Shown piece by piece: positions 6,448-13,932 of a DNA stretch of 39,679 nucleotides. The position numbers and the translations under genes are program-made. The notes under the pieces were generated by a model. It did not search any database and was not told the DNA's origin. It worked only from the letters and a program-made list of their open reading frames with translations. Source of the stretch: Bacteroidetes bacterium HGW-Bacteroidetes-1 (GTDB lineage Bacteria; Bacteroidota; Bacteroidia; Bacteroidales; F082); NCBI GenBank assembly GCA_002842755.1, contig PHDU01000030.1, forward strand, positions 1-39,679. The letters run 5' to 3'. The stretch's first letter is position 1. Each line of letters opens with the position of its first letter.

Positions 6448-6521
6448 GGGGAATTAGCTCAGTTGGCTAGAGCGTTTGACTGGCAGTCAAAAGGTCATCG
6501 GTTCGATTCCGTTATTCTCCA
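6448..6521 (+). tRNA. tRNA-Ala, anticodon GGC
   Basis: The cloverleaf can be drawn directly. The acceptor stem is 6448-6454 with 6514-6520 and includes the G3:U70 pair that marks alanine tRNAs. The D stem is 6457-6460/6470-6473. The anticodon stem is 6475-6479/6487-6491 with loop CTGGCAG, so the anticodon is GGC at 6482-6484. The T arm is 6497-6513 with loop TTCGATT. The discriminator is A6521 and CCA is not encoded. The T stem holds one T:T mismatch (6498/6512). The 3' part from 6479 is the target of the neighbouring island: the first 45 bases from there recur exactly at 13772. Confidence 0.95.
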
Positions 6522-6523
6522 CT
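6479..6523 (+). repeat. Left attachment-site repeat (inside intact tRNA-Ala)
   Basis: These 45 bases are identical to 13772-13816. The repeat starts at the last base of the 5' anticodon stem strand and ends two bases after the discriminator. The flanking bases differ on both sides (G versus T before it, G versus T after it), so the boundaries are sharp. Confidence 0.9.
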
Positions 6524-6530
6524 GGTATTC

Positions 6531-6566
6531 AAAGGGTTGCAATTTTAACTGTAACCCTTTTTCTTT
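6531..6566 (+). terminator. Rho-independent terminator after tRNA-Ala
   Basis: An 11-bp stem (6531-6541 with 6550-6560, AAAGGGTTGCA/TGTAACCCTTT, one G:T pair) with an eight-base loop is followed by a T-rich run. It lies outside the 45-bp repeat, so under the integration model this terminator was supplied by the island. Confidence 0.8.
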
Positions 6567-6903
6567 CATACATAATGTAAACTCCCCCAAAAATAGTACA
6601 GTCTAAAACTGTTGTACGATTTAAAACTCAACAACACAACAAAATTGTTTTGTTTATTGATTGTTAATGATTAGCATCCTTTTATTCCTTGGTTTATTTT
6701 TGATTTACTTCTTTTTGAACACTTCTTTCTTAAACCCATGTCTAAAGCTTCATCTAAAACCACTATACTTATCTTATTAAAATCGTTATCTTTTTTTCAT
6801 AATACATTGATTGTCATACAACAATTCTATCTCTGTCTAAATCTTTATCTTTTTCTTTATTACTTTTATGTATAAAATCGTCTAAAGAAACGTCTATACT
6901 TGT
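6567..6903. repeat. Non-coding stretch with five dispersed GTCTAAA heptamers
   Basis: No gene is seen here. The heptamer GTCTAAA (TTTAGAC on the other strand) occurs at 6601, 6740, 6835, 6880 and 6902, with near copies ATCTAAA at 6752 and GTCTATA at 6892. The last copy contains the stop codon of the ATPase gene. The spacing is irregular. By chance one would expect far fewer than one copy in a stretch this long. Also present are a C-run segment (6582-6600) that resembles an insertion-sequence end, and a 7-bp inverted repeat AACAAAA/TTTTGTT near 6640. Function unknown. Confidence 0.5.
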
Positions 6904-8550
6904 CTAAACTAAAATCCAATACTTTCCTTTTAGACGAATAATTTTGTCTTTTCTCATCGCCTGAAGTATATTCTTGACCTTATCTTTCTTCTGTTTCTCA
7001 TCTAAAACCTCTGACAGTTTTGGAATAATAAGATTCTCAATTTCGCTTCTGTTCCCTTTCTTAAACTTTTTTAGATAGGATGTAATCATTCCTTTGTAAT
7101 GAGCATCATCAAAAGCTCTATTTCGTATGTAAGCAGCTTTATCATCAATTGTGGTTGCTACCTGAGCTGCGATATAGTAATTGGGCTTTCTGCCTTCAAT
7201 TAACTTTTTTTGACGCAGCATTTTTATTGCTTCATCAGTAACAGGAAGTTTCTTCTGAATACGGTCGAGAAGCACAACATTTGACAGCGGTAAATCTTTA
7301 TTTTCGATTAAAAGTTTTGAATAATTCTCGTCGATAGCATGACCATAAATTTGGAGTACTACTTTTTGTTGTTCCGATAATTCGTAATCAGGAAGAGGGA
7401 AGTACCTGTTTTTTTGCAAAAGATACATGGTGTGAATGCCATATCCTAAACGGTCAATCATTCCCAGATTCACCATAGCATGTGCCAGCCATGAATTTCG
7501 GTAACGTTCGGGGGTTTTATCACCGGCAGAGTAGTCATCAGGATTGCCTTCAAAGAAACTACCTGCGTTTGAAAATATAAGCTTGTCTATTTTTTCGGTT
7601 ACAATTATACGGCTGTGCATGGAATAGTCCTGATGAGCAATGCAGTTATGCAATGCTTCTAGAATGGTACGGGTATCGTATTTGTTAACCGTGGTTGCCA
7701 GCAATTCATTATCAGGGAAGAATTTGTATTTGACATTACGGATATACTTCAACACTTTGGTTGTATTCAGCAAAAGGGGAGTCCCAAAATGCTCATACGC
7801 TTTCTCTTCGGTTTCCAGCTTCCATGTGACTTCGCCCATTGCAGGCAATAAATAATGTGATGATTCTTCTTTCCCTAACAGCAGGATTGCCGTATTTGTT
7901 ATTTTACCGTTGATTGTGATTTTTGCTTTATCAAGGAAAGTTTCGTTATCCCATGAATCAATCTCGTTGTAATAGGAAGTCCTGGTACTTCGTTCTTTGA
8001 ATTTTCCCCGAGCCAAACGAACGGCTTCTTCATCCAAATTTTTGATGCTTGCTGATTCAATGGTATTTGCGCTCCAGTCGTCGAGCGAATTGTAAATCAT
8101 GCGTACATAATCTGGGAAATTTCGTAAATCGGTTTTGTTGCTGCCGATTCTGACATAAGGTAATTTCTTGAAATGGGTGGGTTCTCCCTTTGCAGAAGGA
8201 ATACGAAGCAACACAACATTTTTCCCATGATAATCAAATTCAAATATCGCGAAATTGATTTTTGGGTGTAAAAGGTTTCTTACCCAAAGCTCCAAGTCCT
8301 GGTTACCTTGTTTGGAAGAGGAAAAACAAAAGTTCGTGCCTGCTATTTCATGTGTAGTATCATGTACTCCCCACACCAAATAGCCAAAGGGTTTGTTTTT
8401 AATGGTTGCCCCATTGCTCATGGCTGAAATGTACTCACCAATTTGGTCGTTGGTAATGTTGCCAACCCCCGACTTAAACTCAACCCATTCGGTTTCTGTC
8501 GGTAAAATGGCCAGTTCTTCCAGCAAGCTATGTAAGTCTTCGGTTCTCAT
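6904..8550 (-). CDS. AlbA_2/Schlafen-type putative ATPase with winged-helix tail
   Basis: This 548-residue protein combines an N-terminal AlbA_2 (Schlafen-like, divergent AAA) domain with a HATPase_c_4-like domain, as in proteins labelled RecG-related or putative transcriptional regulators. The N-terminal domain shows ETEWVEFKSG, the FGYLVWGVHD strand and PYVRIGSNK. The middle part has EALHNCIAHQDYS, IDKLIFSNAGSF and MIDRLGYGIHTM, matching the N- and G-box arrangement of the second domain. The tail is helical and basic and looks like winged-helix DNA-binding units. It is the last gene of the R-M operon and its ATG overlaps the stop of a 34-codon ORF. In such islands these proteins are suspected defence or regulatory factors. 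A specific function here is inference. Confidence 0.8.
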   Translation of the reverse strand: MRTEDLHSLLEELAILPTETEWVEFKSGVGNITNDQIGEYISAMSNGATIKNKPFGYLVWGVHDTTHEIAGTNFCFSSSKQGNQDLELWVRNLLHPKINFAIFEFDYHGKNVVLLRIPSAKGEPTHFKKLPYVRIGSNKTDLRNFPDYVRMIYNSLDDWSANTIESASIKNLDEEAVRLARGKFKERSTRTSYYNEIDSWDNETFLDKAKITINGKITNTAILLLGKEESSHYLLPAMGEVTWKLETEEKAYEHFGTPLLLNTTKVLKYIRNVKYKFFPDNELLATTVNKYDTRTILEALHNCIAHQDYSMHSRIIVTEKIDKLIFSNAGSFFEGNPDDYSAGDKTPERYRNSWLAHAMVNLGMIDRLGYGIHTMYLLQKNRYFPLPDYELSEQQKVVLQIYGHAIDENYSKLLIENKDLPLSNVVLLDRIQKKLPVTDEAIKMLRQKKLIEGRKPNYYIAAQVATTIDDKAAYIRNRAFDDAHYKGMITSYLKKFKKGNRSEIENLIIPKLSEVLDEKQKKDKVKNILQAMRKDKIIRLKGKYWILV

Positions 8551-8651
8551 TTCAATGCCTCTTTAATTATCCGAAATTCCTCCAATTCTTTGTCTTTTAA
8601 GTACTCTTTCTCGCTAAAACGTTTTTGGTTGAAATATAAGGCTGTTTGCAT
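8547..8651 (-). CDS. Possible 34-residue small protein, translationally coupled
   Basis: An ATG at 8651 opens a 34-codon frame ending in a TGA that overlaps the ATG of the ATPase gene (ATGA, 8547-8550). It begins six bases after the stop of the 93-residue gene, so it fills the space between two genes exactly. The predicted peptide is charged and helical (begins MQTALYFNQKRFSEKEY, rich in Lys and Glu). No family is recognised. It may be a true small protein, a leader ORF for translational coupling, or the remnant of a longer gene. The spacing and overlap are the main support. Confidence 0.4.
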   Translation of the reverse strand: MQTALYFNQKRFSEKEYLKDKELEEFRIIKEALK

Positions 8652-8657
8652 GAAGTT

Positions 8658-8939
8658 TTAGGTTTTTAATTCATCCAGATAATCATATAATTCTGGTAAA
8701 AATGCGCGTTCAAATTCAAATTGAGTAGCATCCTGTGGCAGTTTTTTTTCATCAATACTTGGGCCAGTAGTTTCCCAGAAACAAGGTTGAGGCTTTTCTG
8801 CAAATAGTTTTTTTGCTCCTTTATCTCTCAACCATTTCCAGATTTCCCTTCCCAGCAGGTCATTGGATTTGTTACAATTTGAAGTTTTTCGAATGTAAAG
8901 GATAAACTCATCGTTACCCATTTGAATTTTAGCTTTCAT
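8658..8939 (-). CDS. Small protein of unknown function in R-M operon
   Basis: This is a 93-residue soluble protein with no signal peptide or membrane segment. It has an N-terminal stretch of probable strands (KAKIQMGNDEFILYIRKT), a Trp-rich middle (EIWKWLRDKG, PCFWETTGP) and an acidic C-terminus ending LPELYDYLDELKT. I do not recognise the family. It lies 94 bases downstream of res and just before the small ORF and the ATPase, so the three may be a sub-operon. No TAnnTTTG promoter was found in the 94-base gap, which favours read-through from mod-res. Confidence 0.65.
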   Translation of the reverse strand: MKAKIQMGNDEFILYIRKTSNCNKSNDLLGREIWKWLRDKGAKKLFAEKPQPCFWETTGPSIDEKKLPQDATQFEFERAFLPELYDYLDELKT

Positions 8940-9033
8940 TTTGTTTAGTATTTACTGTTATTTCTAATCTATAGTTAATTTGGAGTTAACCTTAAATTTT
9001 TCTTTATTTTTTATACATACCCAATATTTCATC

Positions 9034-11700
9034 TTATAGCATTTTTATAATATCAATTATCGATTGTGCTGTATATGTGTTAAGTACTTCTTTTTTCTGG
9101 AAAACCATAAAGTATTTAAAGTTATCTCCCGCTTTTTCTGCCCATTTTTTCCCCAATAGGTTTTTGGATTTGCTGTCATCGTTGTCTAAATGGTCGCCCT
9201 TCGTTTCAATTAGTATAAGGTTTTTATTTCTGGTATATATAATAAAATCGGGATAGTGGTTACTATCAAAACCATTTAATGCAAAACCTTTTCCTTTTTC
9301 AAGGTTGCGGTGCCAAAATATTACATTATCCAAAGATGCAATATTCATGATGACTTCCTGTTCAAAGTTATTCATTGAGGCTTCGAGTTCATACAAAGAT
9401 TTTTCAATAGGTGAACTTGTACTAATATGCGATAATTCCTTCTGGAATTTAAAACTTGGTTTTACAAGAATATTATTGGTGTCCAACAATTTCTGGAATT
9501 GTTCCTTTGTGTACTCAGTTTCCAGTTCTTTGACCTTTGCCTTGATTTTTGAGACGTATATAAATTCGTTGTTAATTATGTCCCGAACCTGGTCGTTGCT
9601 TAAATCCTCGAAAATACGGGTTACGTACTTCGTAATATCTTCATGCGAAATGGGTGTCATATCTCCAAGTTTACGAACAATCAAAGATGTTACCTCTTTA
9701 ATTTGTTGTTCTTTGGGTTTTGCAAGAATGTTGTCAACCAAAATGGCTTTAGCACGTGTAGAAACTTTTTGCATTGTTGCAGTATGCTTTATTTCGTTAT
9801 AATCAACCTGATAAACTTCCGTAGATGTTTCATCGAAATTGATTTCTGTGCTTTTTGAAGCCAGTTTAAATCCACTCAGCAAGCTATTTCTATTTAATAA
9901 TTGCTCTTCCTGTTTAAGTTCTTCAAAAAGGATGGTGTCGTGCAGCTCATCTTTTGGAACTTTTCGATAGAATTGAGGGATTTCAATATCGTTTGCTAAA
10001 TAGATGAATGGTTCCTCAATTTTGTACTTTTTAGGTTTTTTGCCCATTTCTCGCAATAAATAATCGTCATTATCTTCGGTGTATTCTTCAGCTTTTTTCT
10101 CAAATGATTTTTCTTCTTCTTCTCCCTTCTGTGTTATCTCCTTTACAATATCATTGGTCTGTCCAATTTGGTCGGGTGTTAATTTTTCTTCCGGGTTAAA
10201 GTCTACCTCTGCAATATTAATATCATTACTTGGCTTATCTTCAGTTTCTTCATCGTTTCCAAAAAGCTCTTTTTGTAGTACTTCATTGTCCGAAAGTTTT
10301 TCTTCTGGTGCTTCCTCTGCATAGTAATCGTCTTTGCTGAAACCAGAATCCTGCAACGCTTTAACAATATTATCTAAGGTTGCCTGAAATTTAGAACTAG
10401 CAGATAGCACGAAAGAAAGATTCAATAAAGAAGATTGATGCCTGGTAACATATGGTTGACGTAATACTCTCCCTAAAATTTGTTCAACATCTACTGCGGA
10501 TGATTTGTCGGCCAGTGATGCTAAAATATAAGCATTGGGGCAGTCCCATCCTTCTTTTAAAGCATTGATAGTAATTATATATCTTACCGGACAGTCTTTT
10601 GCACTCAGGTCGATACCTTTTAACTCGTCCAGCCCACTTACTTTTATTTTAATTTGTTCCTCTGGAATTTTAAGCTTTACAAGCTGCTCTTTTATATGAA
10701 TGTAGGTGGTATTGTCTTTTCCTTGGATATTGGATTGCGCCTGAAATAGAATTATCGGTCGAATATACTTCCCTGTAACTTTATCTTCTTCTATGGCGAG
10801 TAATTCCAACTGACGTTGCAGGTGTAAAGCGCTGGTAACAACTTCTTCTTTCTTGTGGTGATTATACACAATTACCGGAAGTTTAACCATGTGTTCCTTT
10901 TTCAATGCCATCGCATTTACAAAACTGATAATGTTGCTGTTTTCCTTTGGTGTTGCAGTTAAATCCAAAACAAAGGAAGGATTCAGGTTATTTAGCATTT
11001 CCACACTTAATTCACTTTCGGCATTGTGGCTCTCATCGACTATAATAATCGGATTTAAAGAACGAATTACATTTATTAACGCCGTTTCATCCGTATCATC
11101 TAAAATCAATTCAGGTTCAATAAAATCACGGAATGGTTCTAATGCACCATTTTGCTCGTAAACTTTTCGGTCGTCCTTTTTTAATTGATTTATTCGAAAA
11201 CTACCAAAACTAAAAACGAAAATATTTAACTGTTCCTTTACTGATGTTGGGTTGAACCCCGCACCTTGCAATAGTTGTTGTTTTTCAAAAACCTCAACTC
11301 TATTGGCAAACAAGGCATTTAATTTTTCACGATAAGGGTGAGTTGGGTCAGATAATTGTCTAACGGCTTGCTGCAACAAGTTTGACCATGGAACTAACCA
11401 AACAACCGCCTTAGGTTTGGATGCATCGAATGCTTTAAAAATTACATTAAGGGCATTACAAGCAATAAATGTTTTGCCGCCGGCTGTTTGAACTTTAATC
11501 GCTATATGTGTAGCTCCCGGAATATTGTCCTTATACGAGCGCATACCTTTTGTAGTGCCATCCAATAACACCTGATATTTTCCAACCTTCTCCTCCCAAA
11601 ACTGATTAAAAGCTTTAGCGGAATGCTGATACTCGTTTAAATATTCGAGGAACTTATCCAGGTCGTTGATTACTTGTTGTTGATAAGGTTTTAATTCCAT
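9034..11700 (-). CDS. res: Type III restriction enzyme, Res subunit (helicase and nuclease)
   Basis: Res is the ATP-dependent cleavage subunit of a type III restriction system; it works with Mod and cuts DNA with unmodified sites. The 888 residues contain the superfamily 2 helicase core: Walker A TAGGKT (72-77), DESH box (222-225), DLTATPK, and motif VI VEQILGRVLRQPY. A very acidic linker follows, rich in Glu and Asp, at about 470-560. The C-terminus has a PD-(D/E)XK nuclease signature with D818 in HYPDF and E832-T-K834 in LILIETKGD. All key residues appear intact. The ATG is two bases after the mod stop, so translation is likely coupled. Confidence 0.93.
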   Translation of the reverse strand: MELKPYQQQVINDLDKFLEYLNEYQHSAKAFNQFWEEKVGKYQVLLDGTTKGMRSYKDNIPGATHIAIKVQTAGGKTFIACNALNVIFKAFDASKPKAVVWLVPWSNLLQQAVRQLSDPTHPYREKLNALFANRVEVFEKQQLLQGAGFNPTSVKEQLNIFVFSFGSFRINQLKKDDRKVYEQNGALEPFRDFIEPELILDDTDETALINVIRSLNPIIIVDESHNAESELSVEMLNNLNPSFVLDLTATPKENSNIISFVNAMALKKEHMVKLPVIVYNHHKKEEVVTSALHLQRQLELLAIEEDKVTGKYIRPIILFQAQSNIQGKDNTTYIHIKEQLVKLKIPEEQIKIKVSGLDELKGIDLSAKDCPVRYIITINALKEGWDCPNAYILASLADKSSAVDVEQILGRVLRQPYVTRHQSSLLNLSFVLSASSKFQATLDNIVKALQDSGFSKDDYYAEEAPEEKLSDNEVLQKELFGNDEETEDKPSNDINIAEVDFNPEEKLTPDQIGQTNDIVKEITQKGEEEEKSFEKKAEEYTEDNDDYLLREMGKKPKKYKIEEPFIYLANDIEIPQFYRKVPKDELHDTILFEELKQEEQLLNRNSLLSGFKLASKSTEINFDETSTEVYQVDYNEIKHTATMQKVSTRAKAILVDNILAKPKEQQIKEVTSLIVRKLGDMTPISHEDITKYVTRIFEDLSNDQVRDIINNEFIYVSKIKAKVKELETEYTKEQFQKLLDTNNILVKPSFKFQKELSHISTSSPIEKSLYELEASMNNFEQEVIMNIASLDNVIFWHRNLEKGKGFALNGFDSNHYPDFIIYTRNKNLILIETKGDHLDNDDSKSKNLLGKKWAEKAGDNFKYFMVFQKKEVLNTYTAQSIIDIIKML

Positions 11701-11702
11701 GC

Positions 11703-13295
11703 TTAAAATCGTGTTATATCTCTTGGAATTTTCTTATATGTGATGTGATATTTTTGCATCAGAACATTGTCTAATATGCAATTATCGGCGTAAATAATGT
11801 ACTGCTCAGCCTTTGTCTTAATCGTTCTCAAAAAACTATCATCCAGCGTGGTAAGTTTGTCCTTGTAGTAAAAGAAGTAATAAGCTGACGAATTCGCTAA
11901 GCCCAATAAATGTTCTTCTTCAGTATTTACTACATTATATGGTTTACGGGTTTCCGAAAACCAAACATATTCCCGTACTTTCTTCAATCCAACTTCTTCG
12001 TTTAGCATATCGTTTTCAAGGAAAAGTGGTTTGCCCAGTTCGTAATAATCGAATTTGCCACCAATACCTTCAAACGCTTTTTTATCTATACCGTAACCAT
12101 TTATCACTCGTTTTATTCGCTCGGCAGTAATGTTTTCGGCATAATCTTCCATTTCAACTAAAATAAATTTTCGATGGCCTCCATCTTGTTTATTAAGATT
12201 AAGAACAGCATGGGCTGTTGTCCCAGAACCTGCAAAAGAGTCAAGGATGATAGATTTTTTGTCTGTAGTTATGCTTAATATTCTTTCAATTAATTCTTTA
12301 GGTTTAGGAGTATCAAAAGGGAATTGTATTTCTTTAAAAATTTGTTTCAACTCTTGTCTTGCGCTCTGATTATGACCTACTTCTTGATACAACCAAATTG
12401 TAACTGGAACATTTCCCTGATTGACTTCAGAAAGAAATTTTTTAATGCGTGGTACGTTGGTGCCTCTAATTCCAAACCAAATTCGATTATCAGCAAGAAG
12501 TTTCTGTAGATTATCATTCGAAGTCATCCAGCATCGACCTTCAGTCGGTTTAATTATATTTCCTGAAGGTGTTTTTATCTCAAAGTCGTATTCTTTAGAA
12601 TAAGTCTTTACAGTAAAATCACTTGAAGTCCAAACTCCTCTAGGGTCATTATCAGGATTTTTATATCGATTTGTTTGATTCTCTGTTCTTTTTAAAAGAT
12701 TCCTGTTCCAATTATGCTTACTTTTTGTATAACAAAGTATGAAATCATGATTATCTGAAAAATATTTTGAATCATTTTGCGGACTAAATTTCTTTTGCCA
12801 AATAATGTTGTTAACAAAATTACCTTGACCAAATATCTCATCACAAATCAACTTTAAATTGGCTTGTTCGTTATCATCAATTGAAATAAAAATAGCCCCA
12901 TCTGTTGATAAAAGCTTTTGCAATATTTTTAGACGTGGATAAATCATACAAAGCCATTTGTCGTGCCTACTTAAATCTTCAGCTTCTTTGCCCACAACGT
13001 TGCCCAGCCACTTTTTAAATTTGGGGTCATTTACATTGTCGTTATAAACCCAGCCTTCATTTCCGGTATTATAAGGTGGGTCGATGTATATACACTTTAT
13101 TCTTCCCTCATATTCGGGAAGTAAAGATTTTAATGCTTCTAAATTATCGCCATGAATAATTTTGTTACCTGAGTTGGTTTCGGTAGATGATTGTTCGCCA
13201 TTATCAAACCCGTATTGGTGTTCAAGAATTTTGTAGGGCACATCCATATGATGATTGATAACTTTATCTTTTCCTATCCAGTTGAGTGTGGGCAT
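11703..13295 (-). CDS. mod: Type III DNA methyltransferase, Mod subunit
   Basis: Mod recognises the target site and methylates adenine, using S-adenosylmethionine, and also guides Res. The 530-residue protein has the beta-class motif order: IYIDPPYNTG (catalytic DPPY at 72-75) precedes the AdoMet motif LDSFAGSGTT (354-360). The region between, about 170-330, should contain the target-recognition domain, so the site cannot be predicted without comparison. No homopolymer or tandem repeat that would suggest phase variation is apparent in the gene. It follows the XRE gene after 29 bases and precedes res by two bases. Confidence 0.93.
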   Translation of the reverse strand: MPTLNWIGKDKVINHHMDVPYKILEHQYGFDNGEQSSTETNSGNKIIHGDNLEALKSLLPEYEGRIKCIYIDPPYNTGNEGWVYNDNVNDPKFKKWLGNVVGKEAEDLSRHDKWLCMIYPRLKILQKLLSTDGAIFISIDDNEQANLKLICDEIFGQGNFVNNIIWQKKFSPQNDSKYFSDNHDFILCYTKSKHNWNRNLLKRTENQTNRYKNPDNDPRGVWTSSDFTVKTYSKEYDFEIKTPSGNIIKPTEGRCWMTSNDNLQKLLADNRIWFGIRGTNVPRIKKFLSEVNQGNVPVTIWLYQEVGHNQSARQELKQIFKEIQFPFDTPKPKELIERILSITTDKKSIILDSFAGSGTTAHAVLNLNKQDGGHRKFILVEMEDYAENITAERIKRVINGYGIDKKAFEGIGGKFDYYELGKPLFLENDMLNEEVGLKKVREYVWFSETRKPYNVVNTEEEHLLGLANSSAYYFFYYKDKLTTLDDSFLRTIKTKAEQYIIYADNCILDNVLMQKYHITYKKIPRDITRF

Positions 13296-13324
13296 AAACT
13301 ATTTTTTCAAATCAATTATATAAT

Positions 13325-13576
13325 TCAATGCATCAATGGCATTTTTTCATCTTTAACAATCTCATAAACCTGACCTGCCAACCAAAAAGTGAGCAATTCA
13401 TCTTTATCGGTATCCAGCATTTTTGCCAGTTTTAGAACTTGTTCCCCCATTGCCCTTCGTTCGTCATGTTCAATTATGCTGTATATAGGCGTGTCAATCT
13501 CCAAACTTGCAGCCAACTGATGTTGAAGCAATCCTTTATCTTCCCTGAGTTCTTTTATGTGTTTACCTAAAAACAT
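13325..13576 (-). CDS. XRE-family regulator of the R-M operon
   Basis: This 83-residue helix-turn-helix protein is the first gene of the island operon. The HTH covers about residues 5-60: IKELREDKGLLQHQLAASLEID and the following YSIIEHDERRAMGEQVLKLAKML. Small XRE proteins at the head of R-M operons often act as controller proteins that time expression of the methylase and nuclease. Here that role is inferred from position and size. A TAAT/ATTA palindromic half-site pair lies just upstream of the start, but no convincing operator or TAnnTTTG promoter was found. Confidence 0.85.
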   Translation of the reverse strand: MFLGKHIKELREDKGLLQHQLAASLEIDTPIYSIIEHDERRAMGEQVLKLAKMLDTDKDELLTFWLAGQVYEIVKDEKMPLMH

Positions 13577-13771
13577 AACTAATTCGATTACGACTTGTCA
13601 AATTGTGGCTAATATAAAAAAGAATAAGCAAACAAAGGCAAAAAAGAATCAATTAAATATCAACAGCTCAATGATGTAATTTTAGGAAACGGAGATAATA
13701 AAAGCAATTTAATAGATTGATTAAGTGTAATATAGGATATCAAGTGAAATCAAGCATTGTATAAAAATTTT
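13577..13771. other. Right-hand non-coding end of the island
   Basis: These 195 AT-rich bases lie between the XRE start and the right repeat. No ORF of useful length, no integrase fragment and no consensus promoter were found. The operon promoter should be here, reading leftward, but its elements are not recognisable to me. Confidence 0.5.
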
Positions 13772-13816
13772 ACTGGCAGTCAAAAGGTCATCGGTTCGAT
13801 TCCGTTATTCTCCACT
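13772..13816 (+). repeat. Right attachment-site repeat: displaced 3' part of tRNA-Ala
   Basis: This is an exact 45-base copy of 6479-6523. It contains the anticodon loop, T arm and 3' acceptor strand but no 5' half, so it cannot be a functional tRNA. It includes the same T-stem mismatch as the intact copy. It marks the right boundary of the island. Confidence 0.92.
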
Positions 13817-13818
13817 TG

Positions 13819-13850
13819 AAAAAAGTTGTTTCTCACGAAATGGCTTTTTT
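13819..13850 (+). terminator. Terminator after the displaced tRNA 3' end
   Basis: The stem AAAAAAG..CTTTTTT is extended inward by TT/GG and GTTTC/GAAAT (with G:T pairs), with loop TCAC, and ends in a T run. It starts two bases after the repeat and is probably the original terminator of the tRNA gene before the island inserted. Confidence 0.65.
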
Positions 13851-13932
13851 AGTTTTAAGCACTTTCTGTGATTGATAATGCTATTCCGATATCTTAACTG
13901 ATTCAATTCAACCGAATTCTTGAAAGTGATGT

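Follow-up and report, generated by a model that had tools for sequence, protein, structure and literature searches.

An integrase-less island with a Type III restriction-modification operon at the tRNA-Ala(GGC) gene of a Bacteroidales bacterium, probably the remnant of an integrated element

Results

The stretch of DNA analyzed here (the window) comprises positions 1 to 39,679 of contig PHDU01000030.1 of Bacteroidetes bacterium HGW-Bacteroidetes-1 (assembly GCA_002842755.1), and it contains an intact tRNA-Ala(GGC) gene, followed by an island of about 7.3 kb and then by a bare copy of the 3' part of the same tRNA gene. The island holds five open reading frames (ORFs), all on the minus strand and running toward the tRNA, among them a Type III restriction-modification (R-M) operon (Table 1). 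An earlier note on this DNA, made from the sequence alone, had described an exact 45-bp repeat around 7.3 kb, took it for the footprint of site-specific tRNA integration, and left two alternatives, namely a cassette fixed after loss of its recombinase gene or a satellite moved by an integrase encoded elsewhere. The present analysis favors the first of these.

Table 1. Features of the island and its borders (positions in the window)
Feature	Position	Strand	Basis
Intact tRNA-Ala(GGC) gene, with the left attachment (att) core in its 3' part	6448-6522	+	ARAGORN
45-bp exact repeat, left copy (left att core)	6479-6523	+	
Left inner flank; terminator-like hairpin at 6531-6560, no paired arm-site repeat	6524-6903		
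SLFN_AlbA_2 and HATPase_c_4 protein, 548 aa	6904-8550	-	Pfam
ORF of 93 aa, no family match	8658-8939	-	
Type III restriction (Res) subunit, 888 aa	9034-11700	-	ResIII; PADLOC REase_III, E 1.5e-67
Type III modification (Mod) methyltransferase, 530 aa	11703-13295	-	N6_N4_Mtase; PADLOC MTase_III PDLC03644, full length, E 5e-219
HTH_3 controller-like protein, 83 aa	13325-13576	-	Pfam; weak Control_protein match
Presumed promoter region upstream of the HTH gene, conserved with G394 (L220)	13577-13704	-	
Putative right-arm remnant of an integrase-type element, 80 bp	13692-13771		homology to L199
45-bp exact repeat, right copy; bare tRNA 3' fragment (right att core)	13772-13816	+	
Presumed native terminator of the tRNA, now on the right side of the island	13817-13862	+	likeness to the single-copy site of G029

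Both copies of the repeat were recovered as the note had described them, the left within the tRNA and the right as a bare fragment, at an offset of 7293 bp; the full repeat spans 49 nt with one mismatch (6475-6523 and 13768-13816), and the 45-bp exact match inside it is not due to chance. The tRNA has a G3:U70 pair, as read by eye. A 76-bp tRNA query found only these two copies in the host genome (4.23 Mb, 195 contigs), the next-best matches being tRNA-Ala(TGC) at 84% and tRNA-Asn at 77%. Both outer flanks resemble sequence of the host genus: the genes of the left flank align with same-genus tRNA loci, and the Tricorn-like gene of the right flank has 73-81% identity in eight same-genus genomes. 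The contrast in G+C between the island (0.33-0.38 per kb over 7-14 kb) and its flanks (0.38-0.43 in the right 4 kb, 0.37-0.42 in the left 5 kb) is a weak signal. The locus thus has the anatomy of a tRNA-integrated island, in which the tRNA is intact and its 3' end is directly repeated around foreign DNA, and this supports the proposed integration footprint.

The lack of an integrase or mobilisation gene, also remarked upon in the note, was confirmed by Pfam among the five ORFs, and none of the five proteins has an integrase match in PHROGs; primase genes are likewise absent from the island. A tblastn comparison of five integrase queries (four full-length and one piece of 163 aa) with positions 6524-13771 gave no integrase remnant, the best E value being 0.44. 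The genome itself codes for three Phage_integrase genes, none of them on the island's contig; two, of 301 and 299 aa, are Xer-sized, the third, of 512 aa, has no visible island context, and no resident helper integrase was found in this genome.

The note had proposed a search for the same att core joined to other cargo and for integrases at tRNA-Ala(GGC), and both exist, in the genomes of other Bacteroidota (G016, G431, G429 and G433) and in a phage contig (G, C and L numbers are handles for genomes, contigs and loci). The tRNA and a 46-bp fragment enclose 7.1 kb in G016, where a 431-aa SAM_5 tyrosine integrase adjoins the fragment and an HTH_17 protein and DUF3987/DUF6371 proteins are also encoded. 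Contiguous tRNA-fragment pairs with an integrase occur as well in G431 (16.9 kb) and G429 (25.3 kb), the latter being the element of Plebeiobacterium sediminum (L199/L200), whose integrase comprises Arm-DNA-bind_5, SAM_5 and catalytic domains, and which also codes for HTH_17, BT4734-like and DUF3987/PriCT_2 proteins and for the HsdM, HsdS and HsdR of a Type I system. The same tRNA 3' block stands beside an integrase in G433 (end G433a), and in the IMG/VR phage contig IMGVR_UViG_3300037047_000324 (L117/L207), which has terminase-small-subunit and tape-measure genes, an integrase 49% identical to that of G016 adjoins the same core. The integrases of G433a, L107 and the phage were identified by similarity, PHROGs or PF00589 and not by a Pfam SAM_5 match. 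A search of viral contigs with the phage integrase returned only this IMG/VR contig. At an E value of 1e-50 the L199 integrase was found in none of nine host-genus genomes and in 19 of 198 genomes overall. We know of no paper on this tRNA-Ala(GGC) element family in the open-licence literature.

The main evidence on the state of the island comes from the arms adjoining the core. All three integrase-bearing elements read from tRNA to fragment (G016, G431 and G429) have direct repeats of 8-11 bp, with a period of 11-12, in both arms; those of the left arm lie near +50 and +61, and those of the right arm at a distance of about 120-140 bp from the core (p, in the same order, 0.001, 0.007 and 0.002 on the left and 0, 0.003 and 0.022 on the right), and their left and right arms share 13-19 bp exactly (0 of 1000 shuffles in each case). 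The right-arm repeat also lies beside the phage integrase (p 0.007) and in L107, a second Plebeiobacterium end, and was found at five of the six integrase-adjacent ends; downstream of the phage core, in what is perhaps host sequence, there is no repeat (p 0.998). The paired repeats are taken here to be integrase arm sites, and such sites are assumed to be required, in keeping with the general biology of such integrases. In the window no paired repeats were found in the left arm (p 0.996) or the right arm (p 0.698), nor a motif shared by the two (p 0.829), and an arm-binding integrase would presumably lack its contacts at both ends.

Two further motifs were considered. The heptamer GTCTAAA occurs eight times on the plus strand of the window, and five of these copies fall within the 300 bp (6601-6908) that separate the tRNA from the AlbA_2 gene. 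They were rejected as arm sites, having no 11-12 bp pairing and no counterpart in the 300-bp right arm. The motif GGAGTGCCC, with one substitution allowed, lies 104-106 bp upstream of the fragment in L106, L114, L115, L116 and L119, and no integrase was seen beside the four of these ends that have enough sequence (L115 is too short); these ends are better candidates than the window for satellites moved in trans. A motif of this type also occurs in the left arms of L204, L206 and L112, as a second arm-site-like motif marking ends in several genomes.

The right end of the island is homologous to that of the Plebeiobacterium element. By blastn the window matches L199 with 82% identity over 13692-13822 (132 bp, 45 of them core, E 1.5e-31); outside the core 60 of 80 columns match, a score reached by none of 1000 shuffles, and the homology stops 80 bp from the core, before the position of the L199 repeats. 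When the 200-bp right arm was compared with 20 other ends, L199 scored 32.5 (0 of 200 shuffles) and the other 19 gave p values of at least 0.07. Near the core, in-register runs are shared with Plebeiobacterium and Carboxylicivirga ends (10 positions long in L107, p 0.0025, and 6 in G431, p 0.037), and blastn homology to L107 reaches 13759. A comparison of the right end with a phage collection gave 35 matching records; the 10 matches listed cover only the tRNA core, none extending over 80% of the query, and the exact arm-core motif occurs in no viral contig searched.

On the inner side of this arm, positions 13329-13704, which comprise the helix-turn-helix (HTH) gene and its upstream region, have 76% nucleotide identity to G394 (L220:335-3191; E 6e-71), where the homologue precedes an 857-aa ORF judged by eye to be HsdM-like; the controller module thus seems to be common to different R-M types. 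The R-M operon with this conserved HTH module begins 68-80 bp inside the right end, and the L199-type and G394-type homologies meet at 13692-13704, where the junction is placed because the region upstream of the HTH gene matches an R-M controller region in G394. The same homology led to the rejection of another possibility, that the R-M operon had taken over an integrase promoter. The junction is read as the probable scar of a deletion or exchange.

At the left end homology to an integrase-bearing element is suggestive only, the first 110 bp of the inner flank being similar to 6 of the 11 arms that had been assigned to an element or left as unknown (p <= 0.01). Beyond the right fragment the sequence is similar to the single-copy site of G029 (score 12.5, 0 of 300 shuffles) but also to G431 (p 0.01) and G007 (p 0.017), and the terminator scan did not report 13817-13862. 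This likeness suggests, but does not prove, a polarity in which the native terminator of the tRNA now lies to the right of the island.

Bare fragments of the tRNA were surveyed by a pattern scan of one genome per species (84,980 species), which gave 12 loci, one of them false (L108), and of 393 genomes of the order, which gave four matches, including the window and the same false match. Since the pattern requires a non-G before the core, it picks ends breaking at tRNA position 32 and under-samples others, and the common break point of L105-L116 at this position is partly built into it; ends found independently of the pattern start at 28 (L117), 30 (L199), 31 (G016, G433a) and 34 (L203), and also at 32 (G014, L195, L196, L198). 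The 21 ends compared do not include G434:C116:19779 and G437:C196:1081 (matches starting at 39 and 41), G055:C63 (24 bp), L108/L118 (where the tRNA is intact and merely differs at the base that the pattern tests) or a degenerate copy of full length in L115/L088. The Pfam scan covered the ends except for one protein of L112 and those of L119.

Six of the 21 ends adjoin an integrase of this type, L107 included, where only a 163-aa ORF (92-583) lies near the contig end; this Plebeiobacterium ORF, truncated or cut, is a possible decay intermediate. In 13 of the 21, the window among them, no such integrase was seen in the 0.9-28 kb examined, and two (L109, L115) have less than 0.8 kb of upstream sequence. 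Among the 13, a 515-aa large serine recombinase ORF overlaps the tRNA-Ala fragment of L196 (5906-7453, G434:C70), so that a second recombinase type may use tRNA-Ala(GGC); in L195 the interval contains a SAM_4 recombinase together with an IS91-type transposase, and L106 has a 190-aa integrase-domain ORF 14 kb away. Some genomes contain several tRNA-Ala(GGC) 3' fragments, such as G434 (C116, C70, C185), G381:C43 and G433:C243, and in three cases fragments occur twice on one contig, 7-28 kb apart (G433, G434, G381; L195, L197, L198, L112), as in tandem accretion of elements.

A 3' partial tRNA copy (44 bp or longer, with its start no earlier than position 28) is present in 3 of 61 genomes, namely the window's own, G016 and G014. 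The note had proposed a comparison with related genomes for an empty site, and in its strict form this check failed. In seven of the eight genomes of the same genus tRNA-Ala(GGC) is single and full-length and is not accompanied by a 3' fragment, while G005 gives only an 80% match. The genes downstream of the tRNA vary among same-genus genomes (L077-L083), some pairs agreeing, and the upstream LigT-like neighbor is retained in those with enough sequence; the 3' side of tRNA-Ala(GGC) looks like a rearrangement hotspot.

As regards the cargo, none of the five ORFs has internal stops, and none of their products has an NCBIfam match above the curated cut-off. The Type III operon appears to be intact, with Mod and Res adjacent and with the expected motifs in Res (GGKT, DESH, PD..ETK) and in Mod (DPPY, FAGSGT). 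Homologues of the AlbA_2 protein occur in 43 of 393 genomes of the order, its own included (E <= 1e-30); the closest (73%; L150, genome G158) adjoins a DUF2357/PDDEXK_7 gene, and in 16 AlbA_2 loci tblastn (E<1e-5) found neither a Mod nor a Res homologous to those of the island. On these two grounds the AlbA_2 gene is regarded as a separate module, plausibly a defence-linked cargo. In G053 a tRNA-Arg(TCT) gene is followed, after about 0.7 kb, by an AlbA_2 homologue (L151:3959-6416).

Discussion

The block between the two repeats is probably the stranded remnant of an element that integrated at tRNA-Ala(GGC), in which the integrase and the arm sites were deleted and the defence cargo became fixed. 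The fixed remnant is preferred mainly because the presumed arm-binding sites are gone, and of the two alternatives in the earlier note it is loss of the recombinase gene that accords with the joint absence of integrase and paired arm repeats. The parent would have been an autonomous element laid out like that of Plebeiobacterium (att, integrase, HTH, primase, R-M cargo, tRNA), whose attP recombined with the 3' half of tRNA-Ala in such a way that the tRNA stayed complete. Afterwards a deletion or exchange starting about 80 bp inside the right end may have removed the arm sites, the integrase and the replication genes, leaving behind the R-M/AlbA_2 cargo, which would now serve as ordinary chromosomal phage defence and would no longer be excisable by the usual reaction.

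Several observations weigh against this interpretation. The same 110 bp of the left inner flank resemble single-copy tRNA terminators in one of six cases, and of the six arms that they otherwise resemble, that of G008 belongs to a same-genus site without a fragment and that of the phage is perhaps host sequence, so that the left inner flank is only a tentative part of the element. The assembly, in 195 contigs and 98% complete, could be missing a helper integrase. Integrase-less ends are common at this tRNA, and because the integrase-adjacent end G433a has no right-arm repeat (p 0.998), a missing repeat is not an absolute mark of a dead element. The exact empty site, with the right flank immediately after the tRNA, did not turn up among the relatives examined: none of 11 loci around the Tricorn-like gene has a tRNA within, at most, about 1.5 kb on each side, and with this and the differing genes downstream of the tRNA the exact joined flanks could not be shown.

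A rather unlikely alternative is that the R-M genes never were cargo of the integrated element and that, as a small cassette, they entered through homologous or illegitimate recombination between two att cores that already existed as tandem or emptied ends. The sharp junction between the controller module and the att arm would suit such a capture, as would the modular nature of the parts (the G394 controller precedes an HsdM-like ORF, and the AlbA_2 loci lack Mod and Res homologues) and the several ends per contig in G433, G434 and G381. However, the related L199 already has an R-M cargo within its ends, so that a single deletion is enough to account for the island.

The other alternative of the earlier note, a non-autonomous satellite with recombinable ends that is moved in trans by the integrase of a visiting phage or element, is unlikely. 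It draws on the use of the same att core by the phage contig and by several satellite-like elements, on the frequency of integrase-less ends at this tRNA and on the perfection of both 45-bp cores. Yet paired arm repeats are missing on both sides, while the integrase of the closest element has an arm-binding domain; an L199-type integrase was found in none of the nine host-genus genomes; and the genome's two tRNA copies leave no second cassette at this core. There is a very slight chance that the island, like several other integrase-less ends, is still moved by recombinases that need the 45-bp core and no arm sites; if so, the tRNA 3' half would be a portable landing pad for R-M cassettes across the Bacteroidota. 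That the right fragment is an independent tRNA remnant, which the note had named as grounds for refutation, or an assembly artefact is hardly credible, for although the flanks are not syntenic with relatives and the Tricorn-like gene has no tRNA nearby in any locus examined, the sequence just inside the fragment shares homology with the end of an element that has this core and an integrase, and both outer flanks are host-genus sequence.

The choice between fossil and satellite thus becomes a test on sequence, given that most of the integrase-bearing ends examined here carry paired arm repeats at fixed distances from the core: an island that has no integrase but retains such repeats may be one that is moved in trans, and an island without them is probably stranded. 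Phage-defence genes may in this manner turn into a permanent property of the chromosome once their carrier decays.

Among known systems, the island works like the end point of the decay route of cis-mobilizable elements (CIMEs), in which an integrated element loses its integration genes and becomes an att-flanked remnant (PMC5704250); such a route has also been discussed for ssrA islands (PMC3146451). It shares with them the lost integration and transfer genes, the att-type repeats at a tRNA 3' end and the decay of the element. A CIME keeps attL and attR (PMC5704250), whereas the window keeps the cores, apparently not in recombinable form; the island is not filed as a CIME in the strict sense because its att sites have lost their arm portion. 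Nor does it have an integrase of its own, as an integrative mobilizable element or phage satellite would. The Dehalococcoides ssrA islands are similar in their direct repeats of an RNA gene 3' end, and 15 of them are without an integration module, some being suggested to be fixed (PMC3146451); they involve a serine recombinase and the tmRNA gene, in contrast to the arm-binding tyrosine integrases and tRNA-Ala(GGC) here. The Pseudomonas tmRNA-site defence islands I23, I44 and I55 resemble the island in RNA-gene integration, direct repeats, phage-defence cargo including R-M and the absence of self-transfer genes (PMC12595487); they need a helper, transfer by a jumbo phage having been shown for I55, but keep intY and alpA, neither of which is present in the window island. 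The closest counterpart is the Plebeiobacterium sediminum element, which has the same att core, a homologous right arm and an R-M cargo, and differs in its length of 25.3 kb, its integrase, HTH and primase genes, its paired arm repeats and its Type I rather than Type III system. Seen beside these systems, the island is an ordinary kind of thing, fairly well resolved, and its analysis has yielded, as useful by-products, the test on arm repeats and a collection of tRNA-Ala(GGC) elements to which it can be applied.

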